Assembly: GCF_018698455.1 (NCBI RefSeq) | Contig: NZ_JABIOQ010000001.1 | Span: 1-54,424 of the forward strand | DNA length: 54,424 nucleotides | Direction of reading: 5' to 3' | Source: Sulfurimonas sp. | GTDB taxonomy: Bacteria > Campylobacterota > Campylobacteria > Campylobacterales > Sulfurimonadaceae | Part shown: one piece after another, positions 18,962 through 52,148 of the stretch | How positions within the stretch are numbered: the first letter of the stretch is position 1 | How the letters are laid out: each line of letters starts with the position of its first letter | Notes under the pieces: generated by a model | Databases searched by the model: none | Told to the model about the DNA's origin: nothing | The model's input: only the letters and a program-made list of their open reading frames with translations | Program-made: the position numbers and the translations under genes

Positions 18962-21193
18962 CTATCCTTCATTTCGTAACTCAATCAATCTTGCTACATC
19001 AAAGATAAGAGCTATCTCGCCACTACCAAGTACAGAAGCACCACTAATACCAGATAATTGATCAAAAACTATGCCTAACGACTTTATAACTGTCTGATGT
19101 TCACCTAATAACTCATCCACTAAGAGACCTACTATTTTCTTTCCAAAGTATACAATAACGATATTCTGTCTTTCTGTAATACTTTTATTTTCGCCTAAAA
19201 GAAGTCGTATATCTAAAAGAGGAAGTACTTCACCTCGAACATTAATAAACTCATTACCATTTAAGCTTTCCTGCTCTATTGTTGTAAGTTCAATACATTC
19301 TTTAATATTTTCTAAAGGTATAATGTACTTTGTGTCACCTACTTGAAGCAAAAAACCGTCAATAACTGCTAAGGTCAATGGTAATCGTATAGTGATTTTA
19401 CTACCTTGGCCAATAGTTGATTCTATTTCTACACTGCCCCGTAAATCCTCAATATTTCTTTTTACAACATCCATGCCAACACCACGTCCAGATATAGCTG
19501 AAACTGTTTCTGCAGTAGATAAACCAGCTGAAAAAATCAACTTATATATCTCTGAATCGCTAAGGTTATTGTTCTTTTTAACTGATCCATTTTCAATAGC
19601 CTTAGCCAGAATCCTATCTCTATCTAATCCCTTGCCATTATCTTCAATCTCAATGACAATTGTACCGGAGTCTTGATATGCTCTTAAGTCTACTCTACCC
19701 TGAGCAGGTTTTCCACAAGCTACTCTATCTTCTGGAAGTTCAACACCATGGTCTATTGAATTTCGTAACATATGGAGTAAAGGGTCTGAAATACGTTCAA
19801 CAACTGTTTTATCAAGTTCCGTGTCTTCACCACTGATAACAAAGTCTACATCTTTACCAATCTTTTTAGCGGTATCACTTACGATTCTACGAAACTTATT
19901 AAAAGAGTCTCCTACTTTCACCATTCTCATATCCATGATTCCATCACTAACAAACTCTAAAAGCTGTTTCATATGAATTACAGTTTCCCCAATTTCAGAA
20001 CCTTCATCATCTATTAGAGTTAATATTCTAGAATTAGTTATGGATATCTCACTCATATAGTTTATAAGTATATCAATCTTAGAAGAATCAACTCTCAGAG
20101 AAGAAACTGCTTTTTTCTTTGGTTCACTACTTTCTTCTTTTTTATTGAGAACTATCTCTTCTTCTTCTTTTTGATTGAGAACTATCTCTTCTTCTTCTTC
20201 TTTTTGATTGAGAACTATCTCTTCTTCTTCTTCTTTTTGATTGAGAACTATCTCTTCTTCTTCTTCTTCTTTTTGATTAAGAACTATCTCTTCTTCTTTT
20301 TGATTAAGAACTATCTCTTCTTCTTTTTGATTGAGAACTATCTCTTCTTTTTCCTCTACAGTAGGAATTATCAACTCTGGTTCTATTAAAGTATCTTCAT
20401 CTATAAATTTTGCATTTATAAGTTCATTCTTGAGTTCAGGTTCCTTACGTATAGAGACAAGAGTATTATATTCATCGCTATCATCACATAAAAAAATGTA
20501 TAAATCTACATCTTCTTGAATAAATTCAAAAATATCTTCAACCTCAGACTTACTTAAATCTGCCAAAAGACATACTTCGAAGCCAATATAAGGATGAAGA
20601 GGATTGATATCCTCTATACTAGGAATGTTATAAATTATGGGTTGGATTTTTAAAACTTTTCCAACCTTATTAAAAAATTTAAAAACAGAGTTTATACTCA
20701 TACCGGTAGTGAAAAAATCTTTGTGAAATCTAATAGATATATGCCATTTAGCTGCTTCTATCACTATAGTACTTGGAATATCTTCGATATTTTCTTCTTT
20801 TATCTGAGCTCTAGGAAGGTATCCTTCTAGACGTTGAATTAAATTATGGCCAACTTCTTTTTGGGCAGCACTTAACTCTTTGTCCTCAGTAAGAAGATTA
20901 ATTAATACCTCCATGTGATCTTTGCATAAAAGAAATAAAGAGATCATCTCCTCACAAACTCCTACATCACCTTGACGGATACTATCAAAAAGGTTTTCAC
21001 CGGTATGGGCAAATGTCACAATATCATCAAAACCAAACATTCCTGCACTGCCTTTGATTGTATGTACAGCTCTAAAGATTGTTCCTATTGTGCTTTCACT
21101 CGCACCATTACTTTGCATATCAACAAGAGCATCTTCCATCATCTGAAGTTGATCATCACAATCTTCTAAAAATATTTCTAATTCTTCAGTCAT
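18962..21193 (-). CDS. cheA: Chemotaxis histidine kinase with repetitive linker
   Basis: A 743-residue CheA. The Hpt domain has its phosphorylated histidine at His44 in AVHTIKGSAG. A P2-like CheY-binding region occupies about 145-245. A highly charged linker (about 280-357) contains seven copies of EEIVLNQKEE-like units. The dimerisation domain follows. The ATPase domain has LLHMLRNSIDHGVE, DNGKGLDRDRI and SGRGVGMDVV, and the C-terminal CheW-like domain ends at the stop. It phosphorylates CheY, CheV and CheB. It overlaps the STAS gene by 4 bp. The linker repeat is the only abnormal part. Confidence 0.95.
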   Translation of the reverse strand: MTEELEIFLEDCDDQLQMMEDALVDMQSNGASESTIGTIFRAVHTIKGSAGMFGFDDIVTFAHTGENLFDSIRQGDVGVCEEMISLFLLCKDHMEVLINLLTEDKELSAAQKEVGHNLIQRLEGYLPRAQIKEENIEDIPSTIVIEAAKWHISIRFHKDFFTTGMSINSVFKFFNKVGKVLKIQPIIYNIPSIEDINPLHPYIGFEVCLLADLSKSEVEDIFEFIQEDVDLYIFLCDDSDEYNTLVSIRKEPELKNELINAKFIDEDTLIEPELIIPTVEEKEEIVLNQKEEEIVLNQKEEEIVLNQKEEEEEEIVLNQKEEEEEIVLNQKEEEEEIVLNQKEEEEIVLNKKEESSEPKKKAVSSLRVDSSKIDILINYMSEISITNSRILTLIDDEGSEIGETVIHMKQLLEFVSDGIMDMRMVKVGDSFNKFRRIVSDTAKKIGKDVDFVISGEDTELDKTVVERISDPLLHMLRNSIDHGVELPEDRVACGKPAQGRVDLRAYQDSGTIVIEIEDNGKGLDRDRILAKAIENGSVKKNNNLSDSEIYKLIFSAGLSTAETVSAISGRGVGMDVVKRNIEDLRGSVEIESTIGQGSKITIRLPLTLAVIDGFLLQVGDTKYIIPLENIKECIELTTIEQESLNGNEFINVRGEVLPLLDIRLLLGENKSITERQNIVIVYFGKKIVGLLVDELLGEHQTVIKSLGIVFDQLSGISGASVLGSGEIALIFDVARLIELRNEG
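20141..20356. repeat. In-frame tandem repeat in the cheA linker
   Basis: Seven imperfect units of roughly 24-36 bp, each containing GAGAACTATCTC (plus-strand reading, or its AAGAACTATCTC variant) followed by a run of TTC triplets. Units differ in the number of TTC triplets, i.e. of Glu codons, so unit length varies by multiples of 3 and the frame is kept. This looks like a minisatellite with a nested microsatellite and is expected to vary in length between strains. Confidence 0.9.
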
Positions 21194-45139: not shown

Positions 45140-45733
45140 CTATAGCACTCTACTTGGATTTTCTAAAGCAACTTCACGAACACTTTCATTCTCATCACCA
45201 ATTAATCTTGTTAACGTTGCTGCTGGTGTTCTTGGGTTTTTGGCAACAGCTGCACGAACATTTTCGTCTAAATCATAACTGAGTGTATCTAGTGTATCTG
45301 TCGGTATACTTGGATTAACAGTAGCAGATATACGAACAAATTCATCTCTGTCACCACTAAGTTTATTTATAATTTCTACTGGTAAGTTTGGATTTCCTGC
45401 AACCCATGATGTAATGTATCTATCATTACTTAATGCAACAAGTGTTTGGGCAGATGTGCTAGGGTGTTCAGCAACAAACTCACGAACTAATCCACTCTCA
45501 TCTGTACTTAACTTATCCAATGTACTAGCTAATGTGTTTATATTTGCAGCCACTTTAACTTTTACAAACTGGCTCTCATCACCACTTAATATATCTAATT
45601 GTTCTGGAGATAGGTTTGGATGTTGTGCAACTTCTCTTCTAACACTTTCACTTTCACTTGCGATTAATGTATCTAAATCTTCTGTAGGTGTATTTTCATT
45701 TCTTGCTAGTTCTATTTCAGTTGGGTTTTCCAT
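45140..45733 (-). CDS. Leucine-rich repeat variant (LRV) protein
   Basis: Start set at 45733, where AAAGG precedes the ATG; an upstream ATG at 45757 has no such signal. The 197-residue protein is built almost wholly of about seven repeats of 24-26 residues with the pattern NPxxPxxxLDxLSxDxxxxVRxxVA, for example NPSIPTDTLDTLSYD and NPRTPAATLTRLIGD. The fold should be a curved helical solenoid that binds proteins. There is no Fe-S cysteine cluster of the Azotobacter LRV type. It lies 5 bp before ligA and is probably co-transcribed, but the partner is unknown. Confidence 0.85.
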   Translation of the reverse strand: MENPTEIELARNENTPTEDLDTLIASESESVRREVAQHPNLSPEQLDILSGDESQFVKVKVAANINTLASTLDKLSTDESGLVREFVAEHPSTSAQTLVALSNDRYITSWVAGNPNLPVEIINKLSGDRDEFVRISATVNPSIPTDTLDTLSYDLDENVRAAVAKNPRTPAATLTRLIGDENESVREVALENPSRVL

Positions 45734-45820
45734 TTTCTTGCCTTTATAATTTTTCATCTGTTTTATATAAATTTATTGGTCGAATTGTAGCTTTTATTCT
45801 CTTAAAAACTTACCCGTATT

Positions 45821-46207
45821 TTAGTCCACTACTTCCGCATAAGGGTCAAACTTTGCTAGTTCTTCTAGCGCCGCTTCAAATTGATCTGCACTGATTATAA
45901 AAGCATTTATATTCATATCTGCAAAGCCATAAACCTTATCTTCATCAGACTCATCTACAAAGACAAAGATTGACTGTGAAGGTTTTATATCTTGGAGTTG
46001 CTTCATAAACGCGATGTTCTCAGGTACTTTACTTAAGTCACCTATTACAATATCGTATTCATTACTATTAAAAAGTTTCAGTGAGTCTTCTCTATCAAGA
46101 GCTCTGTCTACTTTATTAAAGAGTTCGTCAAATGTCTTAATATTTAAATCGAACTCTGTATTCTCATCTTCTATAAAAAGTATATTCCATTTTTTATCTG
46201 TATTCAT
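45821..46207 (-). CDS. Receiver-like protein lacking the conserved lysine (copy A)
   Basis: Start set at 46207, with AAAGGA upstream; the longer frame overlaps the hemoglobin gene. The 128-residue protein has the receiver layout: LFIEDEN (acidic pair retained) and YDIVIGDLSK with Asp57 at the phospho-acceptor position. The switch threonine and the conserved lysine near the C terminus are absent (INAFIISADQ). Phosphorylation-driven switching is thus doubtful. It lies ten bases after the truncated hemoglobin stop, so the pair is surely co-transcribed. It is clearly paralogous to 47031-47414. Confidence 0.7.
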   Translation of the reverse strand: MNTDKKWNILFIEDENTEFDLNIKTFDELFNKVDRALDREDSLKLFNSNEYDIVIGDLSKVPENIAFMKQLQDIKPSQSIFVFVDESDEDKVYGFADMNINAFIISADQFEAALEELAKFDPYAEVVD

Positions 46208-46217
46208 TCTTATCCTT

Positions 46218-46604
46218 TTATATATTTTTCGTTCTATTGAGAAACTGTTTGGAAAATTGAACACCTTTTTTCTTAAACTGTTCAGCTACACTTCCTATAT
46301 AGACCTCATCTGCCGTTTGGGAAAAAAGCTCTAACCATCTCGCAAAGCTTTCTTTTTTTATATGAGGCATTTTAACATGTGCACCAACAAAGTTTCCATA
46401 ATAGGTATCTTCTCCTAAAATTTTGGCCAACCAAAAATCTGCTAGAAGTTCTATGTGTTCGACCCAGTCTTCACTTTTTATATCATCACCTATTTCATCT
46501 ATAAAAAAAGGGCCCAGAATGTCATCTTCCATGGCTTTTTCATAAAAAATAGTCATTAAGACTCTTAGGTTTTCTCTAGTAATATTATTATAAAGTTCTA
46601 TCAC
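46218..46604 (-). CDS. Truncated hemoglobin (group III-like)
   Basis: A 128-residue globin of the two-over-two type. FYEKAMEDDILGPFF (about 19-33) is the conserved N-terminal helix pattern. WVEHIELLADFWLAKILG (about 47-64) has the distal-side aromatics. GAHVKMPHIKKESFARWLELF (about 75-95) has the proximal histidine context (GxHxxxxxxxxxFxRW). These fit group III truncated hemoglobins, which bind O2 or NO and are known in Campylobacter. It leads a two-gene unit with the receiver-like copy A and is divergent from clpS. Confidence 0.88.
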   Translation of the reverse strand: MIELYNNITRENLRVLMTIFYEKAMEDDILGPFFIDEIGDDIKSEDWVEHIELLADFWLAKILGEDTYYGNFVGAHVKMPHIKKESFARWLELFSQTADEVYIGSVAEQFKKKGVQFSKQFLNRTKNI

Positions 46605-46687: not shown

Positions 46688-46734
46688 CTTTAAAAGATGT
46701 TTATTTTTTTAGTAAAATTATGAAGGAAAATAAT

Positions 46735-47028
46735 ATGCCAATTACAATGAAGCCTCATTCTGCTATTAAGTTTGATACACAGAAACTATACATTATTACT
46801 CTTTACACTGATCGCCATATTTCATGGGAATTTTGTATGACAACCCTTATGAAAGTTTTTCATATGAACCTAGAAAGTGCAACTATTATTACTGATCAGA
46901 TTCAAACTGACGGTGAAGGAATATGTGGAGGTTATTCACTAGAAATAGCCGAAACAAAAGCTACTTTAGTTGAAGAACTTGCGAAAAAACAGAACTTTGT
47001 TCTCCAATGTTTAGTTGAGGAAGTGTAA
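46735..47028 (+). CDS. clpS: Divergent ClpS-family adaptor
   Basis: Start set at 46735, with AAGGA upstream, giving 97 residues. The fold of the ClpS adaptor is evident: LYIITLYTDRHISWEFCM (about 19-36), ICGGYSLEIAETKATLVEE (about 63-81) and a C-terminal QCLVEEV. In the N-degron pocket the usual N-D-D is T-D-R, and the histidine before GKAICG in E. coli is replaced. Normal N-end-rule binding is therefore questionable. No clpA follows; it stands between two oxygen-carrier/receiver-like units. Confidence 0.82.
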   Translation: MPITMKPHSAIKFDTQKLYIITLYTDRHISWEFCMTTLMKVFHMNLESATIITDQIQTDGEGICGGYSLEIAETKATLVEELAKKQNFVLQCLVEEV

Positions 47029-47033
47029 GCTTA
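47026..47033. other. Stop-codon palindrome between clpS-like and receiver-like genes
   Basis: TAAGCTTA contains the stops of both convergent genes with only two bases between them. It is too short to act as a terminator but is the extreme of the end-sharing seen elsewhere in the window. Confidence 0.7.
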
Positions 47034-47414
47034 ATTTTTCAAATAAGGATTCATGTTCGAGATAGCTTCGAGGGCTTGGTCAAGTGCCTCAGGAATAAGT
47101 AAAAAAGTATTTATTCCAAGTTCAATTAATCCCCCAATTTTTTCTTCATCACTATCCAAGACTAAAGCAACTATGACCTGTGTAGGTTTCATTTGTTTGA
47201 GTTGTTTCATAAACTCAATGCCCTCTAAAGGATCCCCACTTATGTCACCAATAATAATATCGTAGTTGTTTTTATAAATCTGTTTTATTGCTTTTTGCTC
47301 ACCTAAGGCATAATCGGCCTTATTAAATAACTCGCTAAATAATTTGTTTTTTGAATCAAAGAATGACTTATCAGTTTGAATAAAAAGTACATCCCATTTT
47401 TGATTTGCATCCAT
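47031..47414 (-). CDS. Receiver-like protein lacking the conserved lysine (copy B)
   Basis: A 127-residue paralogue of copy A, alignable without gaps over most of the length (KWxxLFI, LFNKxDxAL, YDIxIGD, EFMKQL, PTQ). Here the acidic pair is lost as well (FIQTD) while Asp57 in IIGDISGD remains, and the conserved lysine is isoleucine/proline (FLLIPEA). It is therefore more degenerate than copy A. It follows the hemerythrin gene by 20 bp, mirroring the hemoglobin/copy A unit. Confidence 0.7.
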   Translation of the reverse strand: MDANQKWDVLFIQTDKSFFDSKNKLFSELFNKADYALGEQKAIKQIYKNNYDIIIGDISGDPLEGIEFMKQLKQMKPTQVIVALVLDSDEEKIGGLIELGINTFLLIPEALDQALEAISNMNPYLKN

Positions 47415-47434: not shown

Positions 47435-47833
47435 CTATTGTTTTTTTGAAAAATACTCAGCAGCTTCTGCATCCAGAGTCTCAACATGATGAAGTGACCA
47501 TGCCACTAAGTTACCATGAATGTATGCAAGTATCGCGTTTGGCTCTCTATTACCATCAAAATACTTTATTAAATGGGCAAGTTCTTTTAGGTGTCTGTCA
47601 TGCTCAGTTTTATGTTTTTGCATATCTGGAAATTCTGACTTTGTCATTATTTCTTCTTCATTATCAAAATGTATTTGTGTATGTGCTAACAGTTCTCTTA
47701 GCATTTGGGCTACTAAATCGAGTTCTTTATTTGTCGCAGCACCAGTAAGTTTATTTACAATGAGTGACTCTTCCATATGTGTGTCATTCATACTAGCAAT
47801 TGCTACCATTGGAATTTGCTCTAATGTAATCAT
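47435..47833 (-). CDS. Bacteriohemerythrin
   Basis: A 132-residue four-helix di-iron O2-binding protein. Ligand positions are visible: MNDTHMEE (first His/Glu region), HTQIHFDNEEEIM (HxxxHxxxE type), HKTEHDRHL and the C-terminal HHVETLD (HxxxxD). In relatives it carries or senses O2 or delivers it to oxygenases. It is co-transcribed with receiver-like copy B and divergent from another hemerythrin gene. Confidence 0.9.
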   Translation of the reverse strand: MITLEQIPMVAIASMNDTHMEESLIVNKLTGAATNKELDLVAQMLRELLAHTQIHFDNEEEIMTKSEFPDMQKHKTEHDRHLKELAHLIKYFDGNREPNAILAYIHGNLVAWSLHHVETLDAEAAEYFSKKQ

Positions 47834-48061: not shown

Positions 48062-48460
48062 ATGTTAATTCAATTAAACGAAATACAACAAGTGGCAAAT
48101 GAAGTTATGAATATGTTACACGAAGAAGAGTTAGAGATTATAAATGATTTTTACGATGCAGTTAAAGCCAAAGACATAGAAAAGATAGATGAACTTTTTA
48201 AAGTTGTTTTATTTGATGTTGAAGATCATTTTAAAACCGAAGAAGATATGATGGAACAAGCTAATTATGTTAATTTTCAAACACATAAAAGTGACCATGA
48301 CACTATGAGAGAAAAACTAAAAAAATTCCATGACCGTTGGGAAATACTTAAAAGCCCAAAAGAAGTACAAGGCTTTTTAGAAAAAGATTTTAAAAAATGG
48401 ATAAAGCTTCACATTTCAAAATGGGATACTGAGACTGCTCTGCACCTTGGACACTCTTAG
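48062..48460 (+). CDS. Hemerythrin-like protein
   Basis: A 132-residue protein with hemerythrin-type helices: MLHEEELEIINDF (first His), EDHFKTEEDMM (HxxxE), THKSDHD (His pair) and KLHISKWDTE (HxxxxD-like). It is distinct in sequence from the neighbour at 47435. It probably binds O2 or NO through a di-iron centre, though the ligand set is less complete than in the neighbour. Convergent with the DksA-like gene. Confidence 0.82.
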   Translation: MLIQLNEIQQVANEVMNMLHEEELEIINDFYDAVKAKDIEKIDELFKVVLFDVEDHFKTEEDMMEQANYVNFQTHKSDHDTMREKLKKFHDRWEILKSPKEVQGFLEKDFKKWIKLHISKWDTETALHLGHS

Positions 48461-48474
48461 TAAATAATAAGTAC

Positions 48475-48792
48475 TTAGTGGTTCTTAGCACAAGTCCCAC
48501 AAAGTCCTGCTTTTGGCATAATAAGAAGACGCTCTAAATCAATCTCTCCCCCACATTCATTACATGCAAGCGAAATATTACTTTTAAGACGTTCTATAAA
48601 ATAGAGGATTTTTCTTTTTCTCATGTAAATTCTTTTTAGTTTTCTTTGATTTACTTCTTCTTCACTGGCATTTTCAAAAGTTATCATGTCACTTAAAGTA
48701 GATTCAGGTGAGACGACATTTGTATGCAACTCTAGTTCTATTATTTGGATATTTGCTATCTCAACTTCTTTTTGGAGTTGATCTATTGTCAT
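48475..48792 (-). CDS. DksA/TraR-family zinc-finger protein
   Basis: A 105-residue protein with a helical coiled-coil-like N-terminal part (about 1-70) and a C-terminal C4 zinc finger with CNEC and CGTC separated by about 18 residues. Members enter the RNA polymerase secondary channel and alter transcription with or without ppGpp. The coiled-coil tip aspartates of true DksA are not obvious in this short form, so it may be a DksA-like variant with a different role. Confidence 0.8.
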   Translation of the reverse strand: MTIDQLQKEVEIANIQIIELELHTNVVSPESTLSDMITFENASEEEVNQRKLKRIYMRKRKILYFIERLKSNISLACNECGGEIDLERLLIMPKAGLCGTCAKNH

Positions 48793-48980: not shown

Positions 48981-51608
48981 TTATTTAGTGAGTATCTTAT
49001 TTAATTCATCAGCATATATAATTTCTTTTTCAAGAAGTAACTTAGATAAACTCTCAATTTTTTCCCAATGCTTATTTACTAAATTTGTTACATTTTTTTC
49101 ACCTTCAAGCATCCATCTTTCAAGTGCCCCGTCAATCTTCTCATGGTAGTGTTCTGTATCCTTACTACTTCTAGACTTCTTTTGTGCATCCATTACACCA
49201 TTAAGATTAATGTAACCAACTTCTTTGTCCATTCCATAATGAGCGATGGCAACATATGCATCACGTGTAGCTTGTTGTAAATCATTTGATGCACCAGAGT
49301 CCAAACCTTCTATTTCACCAAAGTTCTTAATCTGGGCTGCACGTCCGGCAAGTGAAACACATATTTTGTCTCTAAAGTCTTTGACCGTCATATTTTCTTG
49401 AACATCACTATAGTTATGTGAAATGAAGTGTTCATGGTTGTCTTTTGGTGTCAAACTCACATGTTCTATATTGATTTGAGGCATTAAAATTTTAGAAATA
49501 ACTGCACGAGATGCTTCATAAATAGCTGTCTCTTCAAACATTTGTTCTAAAGACAAGTAAGACTGTCTATCACCATACTTAATCGCGTTTATTTGATCTA
49601 TTAAAATCTCTTGAGTAATAGCAGGTAAGCTATGACGCAAGCAGTAAAAAGAAGCCTCTTTTCCTAGCATTTCAAGTTGAGAACCTGTAAAACCTGTCGT
49701 ATACATCAAGAGCTTTTTCATATCAAAACTACCACTTGTAGGTTTCTTTTGAATTACACTATCTAAGAAATACTGTCTTGCATCTTTATCAAGATTGTTG
49801 ATTTCAATGTGAATCTCAACGCGACCTGGTCTGATAATCGCAGCATCAATATTGTCTTTATAGTTAGTAGCTGCGATTACAAAGATATCTTCACCCTTTT
49901 TACCTGAAAAACCATCCATTTCGGAAAGAAGCTTATTGATAGGTACCTCTCTACCATTTTCACCATCACGTTTCCCAAGAGTATCTATCTCGTCAATAAA
50001 TATAATCGCAGGTGCATAAGCTTTGGCCTTTGCGAAAATAAGTTTTGTTCTCTCAGGTTTAAGTAGTTCGAGTCCCGTAGTAGAGATAAAAGGCAACTCT
50101 GCTTCTTTAGCAAAAGCTTTTGCAAGCATCGTTTTACCAGTTCCAGGAGGTCCATACAGAAGCATGCCTTTTGGTGGTTCAATGTTAAAAGTGTCTAAGA
50201 GTTTGGGTTCTTTAAAAAAGTTAATAACTTCACCAAGTCTCTGTTTTGCTTTATGATGTCCTGCTATATCATCAAATGAAACATTAGGAATGTCAAACAC
50301 AAGTCCATCTTCACTAAAGTCTTTAATTCTAATAACTTGTGAAAACTTACATGAATTAATTTTATATGTAATGACACCATTTTTATCACTAATAACATCA
50401 TCAATATCAAGGGTAGTATTTTTTCTAAACAACTCTCTTACAAGAGTTTCACTTTCAATAAGTGGGTCTAGTCTATCTTTTATAAATGTAACTACTTCTT
50501 TTGAGACAACAATTTTTATCTGTTTAAAACTCATTATTGTTCTGTCTGTGTCTTGCATATATTGGGTTATTCTATTAAAAAAGAAAGTACTCACTTTTTC
50601 TTTAATACGCCTTGCATCTAACTCAGGGGCAAAATTAAGCATCTGTATTGTTAAAAAGTTGTCAAAATTTCTAGCAACTACAAACTCGATTTTATACTGT
50701 TTAAAAAAATCATCTTTAAAGCTAAGAAACACTCTTTTAGATATTTTTTCAAAAGCGTCATATTCAAGCTTATTAAACAGAACGATATTCGCTTTAGAAA
50801 ATCTAGAAACAAGTTCAGGAACAATTGCTTCTTGCATACCGCCACTTCTAGTGTCTCTTTTCTGCTCACGTTTAATCGCTTCAAGAATCATAGATTCAGC
50901 TTGTATATAATCTTTTTTTACTAAGTCTTTAAACTTGTAGTCAAGATAAAGCTCTTTACCAACACTAGTAGTAATAACAAAAATTGTCTCTGTAAAATCT
51001 ACCATATAATTAGCATTTTCGTCATTATATATTATATCTGGGTCTTCACTACACGGCTCATCGGTTATTTTATCCCAACCACAAGCATCACGCATTTTTC
51101 CACCTTCAAAGATAGAAAAAAGGTTGTTCTGAATAATATTATCACACTTCTCAAACGAGTCGAGTACGATGATAGACTTAGGGTTTCTATGAACAAAACC
51201 TGTTAACTGACCAACACCATAGCCTTTCCAACCATTAGGATAACCATATAGTTCTCCACCATTTTGTTGGTGATACTGAGTCATATCAAAAGTCATAATT
51301 CTATATTTTGGTATATGCTTTGCCATGAGTTCAGCAAGGTAAGTTTTTCCAGTTGCTGGAGAACCTAAGAACAAATAAGTAGACTTTGGACCTTTTTCAT
51401 CCTTCATAGAAGTTTTCATACTATTTGTAACAATACTAATAGCTTGATCTTGTCCAAACAAATCTTTAGTGAGTTCTGCTTTAAATAACTTTACAAACTC
51501 TATGTTGTCTTGTGCCGCTTTAAGGGCAGATTCATCCCACTCAGCTCTTACTTCTAGCTTCTTGTGTTTCTCAATATTTGCTTTAACTCGTGCTTCATTT
51601 TCTGTCAT
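48981..51608 (-). CDS. Double AAA+ protein with inactive FtsH-type peptidase domain
   Basis: An 875-residue soluble protein, unlike any standard protease. Module 1 (about 45-240) resembles Clp-type AAA: Walker A GSPATGKT at 82-89 and GYGVGQLT at 130s. In the Walker B segment IVLDSFEK the catalytic Glu is Ser151, so hydrolysis there is unlikely. Module 2 (about 445-690) is FtsH-like and intact: GPPGTGKT near 485, IIFIDEID, RPGR. An M41 peptidase-like domain follows, but the zinc motif HEAGH reads YEASR (697-701); the third ligand Asp776 in SGASNDLQQAT is kept. No membrane span is present. It likely remodels rather than degrades proteins. It ends a region containing ClpS, hemerythrins and DksA-like genes. 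Confidence 0.85.
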   Translation of the reverse strand: MTENEARVKANIEKHKKLEVRAEWDESALKAAQDNIEFVKLFKAELTKDLFGQDQAISIVTNSMKTSMKDEKGPKSTYLFLGSPATGKTYLAELMAKHIPKYRIMTFDMTQYHQQNGGELYGYPNGWKGYGVGQLTGFVHRNPKSIIVLDSFEKCDNIIQNNLFSIFEGGKMRDACGWDKITDEPCSEDPDIIYNDENANYMVDFTETIFVITTSVGKELYLDYKFKDLVKKDYIQAESMILEAIKREQKRDTRSGGMQEAIVPELVSRFSKANIVLFNKLEYDAFEKISKRVFLSFKDDFFKQYKIEFVVARNFDNFLTIQMLNFAPELDARRIKEKVSTFFFNRITQYMQDTDRTIMSFKQIKIVVSKEVVTFIKDRLDPLIESETLVRELFRKNTTLDIDDVISDKNGVITYKINSCKFSQVIRIKDFSEDGLVFDIPNVSFDDIAGHHKAKQRLGEVINFFKEPKLLDTFNIEPPKGMLLYGPPGTGKTMLAKAFAKEAELPFISTTGLELLKPERTKLIFAKAKAYAPAIIFIDEIDTLGKRDGENGREVPINKLLSEMDGFSGKKGEDIFVIAATNYKDNIDAAIIRPGRVEIHIEINNLDKDARQYFLDSVIQKKPTSGSFDMKKLLMYTTGFTGSQLEMLGKEASFYCLRHSLPAITQEILIDQINAIKYGDRQSYLSLEQMFEETAIYEASRAVISKILMPQINIEHVSLTPKDNHEHFISHNYSDVQENMTVKDFRDKICVSLAGRAAQIKNFGEIEGLDSGASNDLQQATRDAYVAIAHYGMDKEVGYINLNGVMDAQKKSRSSKDTEHYHEKIDGALERWMLEGEKNVTNLVNKHWEKIESLSKLLLEKEIIYADELNKILTK

Positions 51609-51776: not shown

Positions 51777-52148
51777 TTATTGAGCCTTAGAATCTTGTAT
51801 ACGTTTTAACATCGCCTCTAGGTTTCCAGTAGAGCGCACTTCTACGACTGCATTAACTACTCCATGTAATGATACATTTAGTAAATACTCTGTCATATCT
51901 TCACTACCACTTTCTTTCATATTTGCATCTATCCTCATTTTTTGTGCTTCGGTTACTTTAAACCCAAGTTCTTCAGAGGCCTCGTGCATTGATTCTATTT
52001 TATTTACAACATTAAATGGTTCTACTTTGATTGCTACTACTTTTAAATATGCAGGTATCTCGTCAAAGCCATTTTCTAAGGTTCTAAGGAGTATTGTCTC
52101 TTTTTGTGCTGGTGTTACTTTAAAATTTATTTGTATATCTGGATTCAT
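51777..52148 (-). CDS. Protein with tandem MobC/RHH-like repeats
   Basis: A 123-residue protein made of two similar halves: INFKVTPAQKETILLRTLENG with IPAYLKVVA, and LGFKVTEAQKMRIDANMKES with MTEYLLNVS. The pattern (strand, VT-turn, two helices, YL) resembles ribbon-helix-helix or MobC-type DNA-binding units duplicated in one chain, which could bind DNA as a pseudo-dimer. No mobilisation genes are nearby, and the assignment rests on pattern only. Confidence 0.5.
   Translation of the reverse strand: MNPDIQINFKVTPAQKETILLRTLENGFDEIPAYLKVVAIKVEPFNVVNKIESMHEASEELGFKVTEAQKMRIDANMKESGSEDMTEYLLNVSLHGVVNAVVEVRSTGNLEAMLKRIQDSKAQ

Follow-up and report, generated by a model that had tools for sequence, protein, structure and literature searches.

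A soluble Clp-FtsH chimera with a probable pseudo-peptidase domain in a hemerythrin- and globin-bearing gene neighbourhood of Sulfurimonas

The window, that is, the whole stretch of DNA analysed here, comprises 54,424 nucleotides of Sulfurimonas sp. (contig NZ_JABIOQ010000001.1, positions 1 to 54,424). It encodes an 875-residue protein in which a Clp-type AAA+ domain is fused to an FtsH-type AAA+ domain and an M41-type domain (hereafter the chimera), together with a set of small genes, several of which recur at the loci of its close relatives (clade A, 22 loci with the window). The genes are as follows.

45140..45757, reverse strand: protein with leucine-rich-variant (LRV) repeats (seen at 9 of the 22 clade A loci)
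45821..46264, reverse strand: receiver-like protein, second copy (weak Pfam match, 0.0085)
46218..46604, reverse strand: group III truncated haemoglobin (match to 2ig3, 1.2e-17; no Pfam or NCBIfam match)
46720..47028, forward strand: ClpS paralogue with altered N-degron pocket (alignment to a ClpS structure)
47031..47414, reverse strand: receiver-like protein (neighbour annotation and tally)
47435..47833, reverse strand: bacteriohemerythrin (homologue directly downstream of the chimera gene in 8 loci)
48062..48460, forward strand: bacteriohemerythrin (neighbour annotation and tally)
48475..48792, reverse strand: zinc-finger protein of DksA/TraR type (Pfam score slightly below the cut-off; 8 of 22 loci)
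48981..51608, reverse strand: Clp-D2/FtsH chimera with pseudo-M41 domain, 875 residues (ORF, Pfam, structure model, fold match)
51777..52148, reverse strand: NikA-like protein whose halves resemble each other by eye (seen at 9 of 22 loci)

Pfam analysis of the chimera identified AAA_2 at residues 74-271 (whole protein, 3.2e-22), AAA at 482-604 (1.5e-41) and Peptidase_M41 at 692-872 (1.1e-23); the NCBIfam model FtsH_fam scored 297 bits, under its cut-off of 600. In an AlphaFold2 model built from 33 aligned relatives (mean pLDDT 79.9, pTM 0.59), residues 433-875 matched the fold of FtsH (7zbh, Z 33.0; 2ce7, Z 32.0) and residues ~30-411 that of the second AAA+ domain of ClpB/ClpC (4fcv, Z 24.5 over 32-410). 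An earlier sequence-only reading, which saw a Clp-like AAA module, an FtsH-like AAA module and an M41-like domain in one chain, is borne out by these profiles and folds. It had also described the chain as soluble, and this agrees with hydropathy: the 19-residue peak is 1.22, against 2.72 in the FtsH of the same genome, and the chimera is therefore considered to have no membrane segment; by the same measure, no N-terminal anchor of FtsH type was found. The parts of the protein, all on the reverse strand, are listed below.

50376..51521, reverse strand: D1, Clp/ClpB-D2-type AAA+ including the small domain, residues 30-411 (AAA_2; 4fcv fold match)
51222..51233, reverse strand: GWKG at the D1 pore-loop position, residues 126-129 (alignment)
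51156..51158, reverse strand: Ser151 in place of the D1 Walker-B catalytic Glu (clade A alignment)
49539..50297, reverse strand: D2, FtsH-type AAA+ with Walker A/B and SRH Arg intact, residues 438-690 (Pfam, fold, alignment)
50055..50075, reverse strand: site in D2 of the deletion of FtsH pore loop 1, residues 512-518 (alignment; model secondary structure)
48990..49538, reverse strand: pseudo-peptidase M41 domain, residues 691-873 (Pfam, conservation, fold match)
49506..49520, reverse strand: YEASR where HEXXH is expected, residues 697-701 (alignment)
49281..49283, reverse strand: Asp776, third zinc ligand position, retained (alignment)
49143..49151, reverse strand: His-Tyr-His, residues 820-822, found in clade A only and beside a clade A insertion (alignment)

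A scan for relatives (one genome per species, reaching close relatives only) returned 21 loci besides the window, all in records named Campylobacterota, e.g. Sulfurimonas, Sulfurovum and Sulfuricurvum. Residue counts over clade A cover 20 complete sequences (at least 70% identity), namely the window protein and 19 of the 21 scan loci, with L055 (truncated) and L057 (split) excluded. YEASR and the retained Asp776 are as the sequence-only reading described them. The first zinc His position (697) is Tyr in 20/20 sequences; at the second (701), 19 have Arg and one has His; at residue 698, 18 have Glu and two have Gln; and residue 776 is Asp throughout. Whether the change might be strain-specific has a divided answer: the exact form with Ser700 is confined to the window protein, the other members reading YEAGR, YESGR, YQAGR or YEAGH (the incomplete L055 and L057 likewise read YEAGR), but the loss of His697 is common to all 20. 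This conservation rules out a sequencing error behind the dead zinc site. With the M41 zinc site lost clade-wide, the chimera is, judging from its residues, very probably a pseudo-protease.

The sequence His-Tyr-His at 820-822 is invariant in clade A and missing from the aligned rows of the three further groups of relatives, T2, B and T4. In addition, a strand of PRxxALGFV type in active relatives is PKDNNEHF-like in clade A, and both features would fit a re-purposed surface. They bear as well on the proposal that the domain is still a peptidase with a changed metal site, formed by Tyr697, Glu698, Asp776 and perhaps His820/His822. Asp776 and the His-Tyr-His are invariant and Glu698 is kept in 18/20, but both zinc histidines are lost in 19/20, Glu698 has become Gln in 2/20 and the PRxxALGFV-type strand is itself altered, and we regard such activity as very improbable.

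The dead domain is under purifying selection. Estimates of dN/dS (Nei-Gojobori, own script, 11 non-independent pairs, those with dS above ~1.5 being rough) were 0.014-0.106 for the M41 region, 0.012-0.052 for D2 and 0.013-0.039 for D1, with a span of 0 to 0.13 over all four regions, and 71 of 183 M41 positions are invariant in clade A. The low M41 values and the invariant positions therefore indicate that the domain is retained for a use, under somewhat looser constraint than the ATPases. A decaying protease relic might be suspected from the loss of catalytic residues in two domains and from L057, where the gene is split in two frames; however, the dN/dS range and the uninterrupted frames of 20 complete loci make this extremely improbable. 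At L057 (8001-10626) the two frames overlap (571 and 337 residues) in one MAG, either through a real mutation or an assembly error.

Relatives with HEXXH, which the sequence-only reading had named as counting against it, do exist in T2, B and T4, yet none of them falls within the dead clade, for which the tree gives monophyly (100/100); the loss of the zinc site thus looks old, single and kept. The tree set leaves out L041, L051, L052, L055, L056, L057 and the duplicate L077 (L008, L077 and L082 are from the same genome as L044, which is that of G247). B and T4 form a single group (100/100), and six T2 rows branch together with clade A with 90/88 support, an unsure join with long branches flagged. 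Among the seven T2 rows, HEXXH is found in 7/7 and the Walker A and B motifs of both ATPases are intact in 6/7, L013 having a decayed D1. In B (12 rows), HEXXH is kept in 12/12, the D1 Walker A Thr and Walker-B Glu are changed in 12/12 and the D2 Walker-B Glu is replaced in 8/12; in T4 (four rows, no D1), HEXXH is kept in 4/4 and the D2 Glu reads Asp in 4/4. By these motifs B and T4 are the mirror image of clade A, with the peptidase retained and the ATPases decayed. Its most likely ancestor is a soluble Clp_D2-FtsH protease that was still active. A bolder reading takes these groups as a single soluble Clp-FtsH family not described before, the protease having been given up in one lineage and the motor in another; joined with the more specific version of the oxygen/NO role given below, we hold it to be rather doubtful. 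Short soluble AAA-M41 proteins of ~450 residues (639 as called in L080) were also seen at L078, L079, L080 and L114; they retain HEXXH and have the D2 Walker-B Glu replaced, which makes them peptidases whose AAA domain has decayed.

Matches to the chimera at 1e-60 or better occur in 51 of 298 genomes of the order, and the dead clade A form, judged by identity and coverage, in two of the 298 (G000 and G247). Clade A is an accessory gene, and the interleaving of Sulfurovum and Sulfurimonas within it suggests transfer. Carriage on mobile elements was rejected: none of 72,556 plasmid and none of 50,697 phage records had one place covering 80% of the chimera, and no viral contig was confirmed.

In D1, Walker A is intact (GSPATGKT, residues 82-89) and the Walker B reads VLDS, with the catalytic Glu replaced by Ser151, in accordance with the sequence-only reading. 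Residue 151 is Ala in 12/20 and Ser in 8/20 clade A sequences and Glu in none, so that a hydrolytically competent Walker B is missing from this domain throughout. Lys88 and Asp150 are each invariant (20/20) and the Arg finger Arg269 is present in 16/16 rows. Clp proteins carry the pore-loop motif GYVG; at this position every aligned clade A row having D1 retains an aromatic residue (Trp, in GWKG), T2 has Tyr in 7/7 and B a gap in 12/12. The [LIV]G[FL] loop, by which ClpA, ClpC and ClpX alone dock ClpP, has no counterpart in the whole chimera sequence, and ClpP was dropped as a partner on this ground.

D2 resembles an active FtsH ATPase, with GPPGTGKT (486-493) and FIDEID including Glu540; Lys492, Thr493, Asp539, Glu540, Asn582, Arg593 and Arg596 are each found in 16/16 clade A rows. 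As far as motifs can tell, the view that one ATPase is blocked (D1) and one active (D2) was correct. However, the FtsH pore-loop columns MFVGVG, kept by both FtsH proteins of the same genome in the same alignment, are missing in every aligned row of A, T2, B and T4. In FtsH this segment sits between a short helix and the following one, and in the chimera model residue 517 alone parts the two helices flanking the lost loop. The loop is likewise missing from L031, L032 and L035, of the short AAA-M41 kind. Every soluble relative in this alignment is without the FtsH aromatic pore loop, a feature new here.

A D2 without an aromatic pore loop and a D1 with the aromatic residue but no Glu weaken the term unfoldase, which had been offered beside remodeller. 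In clade A the hydrolysing ring would have no gripping loop and the looped ring could not fire, from which we infer latching, holding or remodelling of clients. A true unfoldase or translocase, with the D1 Trp loops threading clients, D2 supplying the power and the product unfolded without being cut, would make use of the conserved GWKG aromatic and of the intact D2 ATPase. It would have to work with the pore loop 1 and the catalytic Glu missing from opposite rings, and FtsH itself is described in an excerpt of PMC8197885 as having no robust unfoldase activity; this reading we consider unlikely. D1 could nevertheless have slow residual hydrolysis, and threading by its pore loops could be driven by D2. 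Of the earlier wording, not a protease and soluble stand, remodelling is favoured and unfolding is not.

The chimera might also be a subunit or decoy, mixing with active FtsH-type proteins or competing with them for clients and so tuning proteolysis. FtsHi pseudo-proteases act in complexes with FtsH12 and Ycf2 (excerpts of PMC9020784 and PMC11266112), and further M41 proteins are present in all 22 clade A genomes. However, a further M41 frame of the size of the soluble type occurs in just four of the 22 (G498, G499, G505 and G512; the motif, read in two of them, is HEAGH in both), canonical FtsH is anchored by membrane segments and is without a D1, and G000 and G247 have no other match at 1e-60; we judge this role improbable. 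The genome of the window also encodes, on contig C39 (L115, 9394-11040), a second FtsH-like protein of ~550 residues; it contains hydrophobic segments, and its zinc motif has degenerated to VTYQAAK, a motif read in this copy alone. Frames of 546-571 residues with an M41 match, partial and mostly starting past the motif, were found in 20/22 clade A genomes.

The surroundings of T2 genes are of a different kind. By Pfam, the neighbours of the T2 gene include DUF4062/STAND and TrkA_N genes at L062 and DUF4062, TIR and TrkA_N genes at L064; L065 and L112 have similar surroundings by sequence likeness, with TIR genes at L065 as at L064, and at L063 the gene adjoins a NERD/helicase gene. Around L111 no DUF4062/STAND or TIR-type partner was seen by eye. 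The proteins of L062, L064, L065 and L112 are soluble Clp-FtsH-M41 chains with intact catalytic residues, and with these neighbours they may possibly form an undescribed conflict system. An ancestral conflict role, before the switch to clade A, is accordingly possible. That the chimera itself inherited a part in such a conflict or defence system would agree with the T2 neighbours and with its partial AAA-domain matches to PADLOC models (IetA, the best at 2.8e-28, PDC-M37B, DolB, TRIP13 and mad8). Against this, the 22 clade A loci carry members of the hemerythrin, receiver, globin and ClpS-like set instead, and the plasmid, phage and viral-contig searches described above were negative; inheritance of this kind is quite improbable. 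As a known defence protein the chimera was rejected, the PADLOC matches being confined to parts of AAA domains.

The neighbourhood tally refers to fetched flanks only (~8 kb where available, some short in both sets) and compares the 22 clade A loci, which include close relatives and are not independent, with 23 loci of other groups (19 in the main tally; L111-L114 scored separately). Hemerythrin genes were found in the flanks of 19/22 clade A loci against 0/23 others, receiver-like genes in 14/22 against 1/19 and truncated-globin-like genes, more and less similar ones lumped, in 10/22 against 0/19. ClpS-like genes were seen at 9/22, and these as well as the NikA-like, LRV and DksA-like genes each at 0/19 elsewhere; none of the island families had a match around the non-A loci L111-L114. 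L044 has no hemerythrin in its flanks. The hemerythrin gene follows that of the chimera directly on the same strand, 8 to 42 bases downstream, in L037, L039, L040, L041, L042, L043 and L056, and in L057 it comes after the split gene. The globin of the window matches 2ig3, the group III truncated haemoglobin of C. jejuni.

Hemerythrins of C. jejuni guard Por and Oor against oxygen (excerpt of PMC4257069), and two hemerythrin-like genes are expressed in a plume Sulfurimonas, with oxygen storage, detection and detoxification suggested as roles (excerpt of PMC10066037). A link of the chimera to oxygen/NO handling, drawn from its gene neighbourhood only, is plausible. A nif-island reading, prompted by the LRV, hemerythrin and globin genes, was rejected, since nifH (present in 65/298 order genomes) is missing from the clade A genomes G000 and G247. 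At L049 (11180-12214) a response regulator resembles the model of a NosR-family c-di-GMP phosphodiesterase (130.6 bits, cut-off 400), and at the related loci L050-L053 its homologues are found near the chimera. In the window, a CheA-like protein (18962-21193) has, from its translation, a linker with tandem Glu-rich units of IVLNQKEEE type.

The ClpS-like protein of the window aligns without gaps to ClpS of known structure (3dnj), and three residues of the N-degron pocket are changed, namely the NDD Asn, the Met and the second of the His residues; the L045 protein retains the NDD Asn. A normal ClpS is also encoded in the genome, beside ClpA. With a threshold of 84 bits, the paralogue is found in 16/22 clade A genomes, is missing in 6/22 and occurs in 0/296 sampled order genomes without clade A; in the draw of 298, G000 alone reaches this score, and six others lie at 65-79 bits. 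At L041 and L043 the ClpS-like gene ends 1-2 bases ahead of the chimera ATG. Clp_N, the usual dock of ClpS, was not found in the chimera by Pfam, and the paralogue may therefore serve ClpA instead.

We give roughly even credence to the reading that the chimera is a soluble machine, latched by ATP, which remodels or holds proteins and works within an oxygen/NO-handling gene set as a distant functional analogue of FtsHi. It would presumably be a hexamer with two AAA+ rings in which protein cleavage has been lost; the hexamer, the ATPase cycle and a client are what we infer here. D1 would bind ATP through Lys88, Asp150 and Arg269 and, having no Glu for hydrolysis, may stay latched on ATP as a clamp that holds the client with its Trp127 loops. 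Hydrolysis in D2 would move this clamp, so that the client is remodelled, dissociated or held, and the M41 ring would be a structural or docking platform. The machine would serve an accessory oxygen/NO set of two bacteriohemerythrins, the group III truncated globin and the receiver-like proteins, and perhaps protects oxygen-labile enzymes. The ClpS paralogue is perhaps a re-purposed adaptor, although its presence in the flanks of just 9/22 loci speaks against this. A more specific version, in which the motor-only lineage is an oxygen/NO-stress machine with latched D1 and loopless D2, its His-Tyr-His docking or sensing hemerythrins and the ClpS paralogue taking part, is rather unlikely.

The chimera shares with FtsH/M41 proteases the architecture and fold of D2 and M41 (7zbh of B. 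burgdorferi, Z 33), the SRH and the Walker motifs; it differs in having no membrane anchor, FVG-type pore loop or HEXXH and in carrying an extra Clp-type D1. The missing D2 pore loop, absent even from the catalytically complete T2 proteins, challenges the picture that an FtsH ring must grip. D1 resembles the second AAA+ of ClpB, ClpC and ClpA in fold (4fcv), Arg finger and aromatic pore position, but its Glu is replaced, it has no IGF/L-type ClpP loop and it is fused to FtsH. Among the matches listed from the open-access literature, no title concerned a soluble Clp-FtsH chimera or its island. The FtsH-ternary conflict systems (Kaur et al. 2020, PMC7159879) also have two AAA domains, the first inactive and the second an active FtsH type, but in the excerpt seen both are FtsH-type and accompanied by MoxR/vWA, whereas D1 of the chimera is Clp-type; they are, on that excerpt, the nearest described design and yet not the same. 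No MoxR/vWA gene was recognised among the ten Pfam-scanned window neighbours or the recurrent clusters. The comparison with plastid FtsHi proteins, made already by the sequence-only reading, holds up: these too combine an intact FtsH ATPase with a lost zinc site, that of FtsHi5 reading WAAGR (excerpt of PMC11266112), and the Ycf2-FtsHi motor (8xku) is among the fold matches of the chimera. Unlike the chimera, they are membrane-bound, located in the plastid, part of hetero-complexes and devoid of a Clp-type D1, and a separate origin is suggested. FtsHi proteins are described as confined to the plant chloroplast (excerpt of PMC8197885), and pseudo-FtsH has so far been known mainly from plastids; the chimera would be a soluble bacterial case, with an island that connects a clade of dead proteases in sulfur-oxidising Campylobacterota to the handling of oxygen. 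With the peptidase lost in one lineage and the ATPases in its sister, such a family would allow a direct look at what each part of an AAA+ protease does, in a setting free of a membrane.
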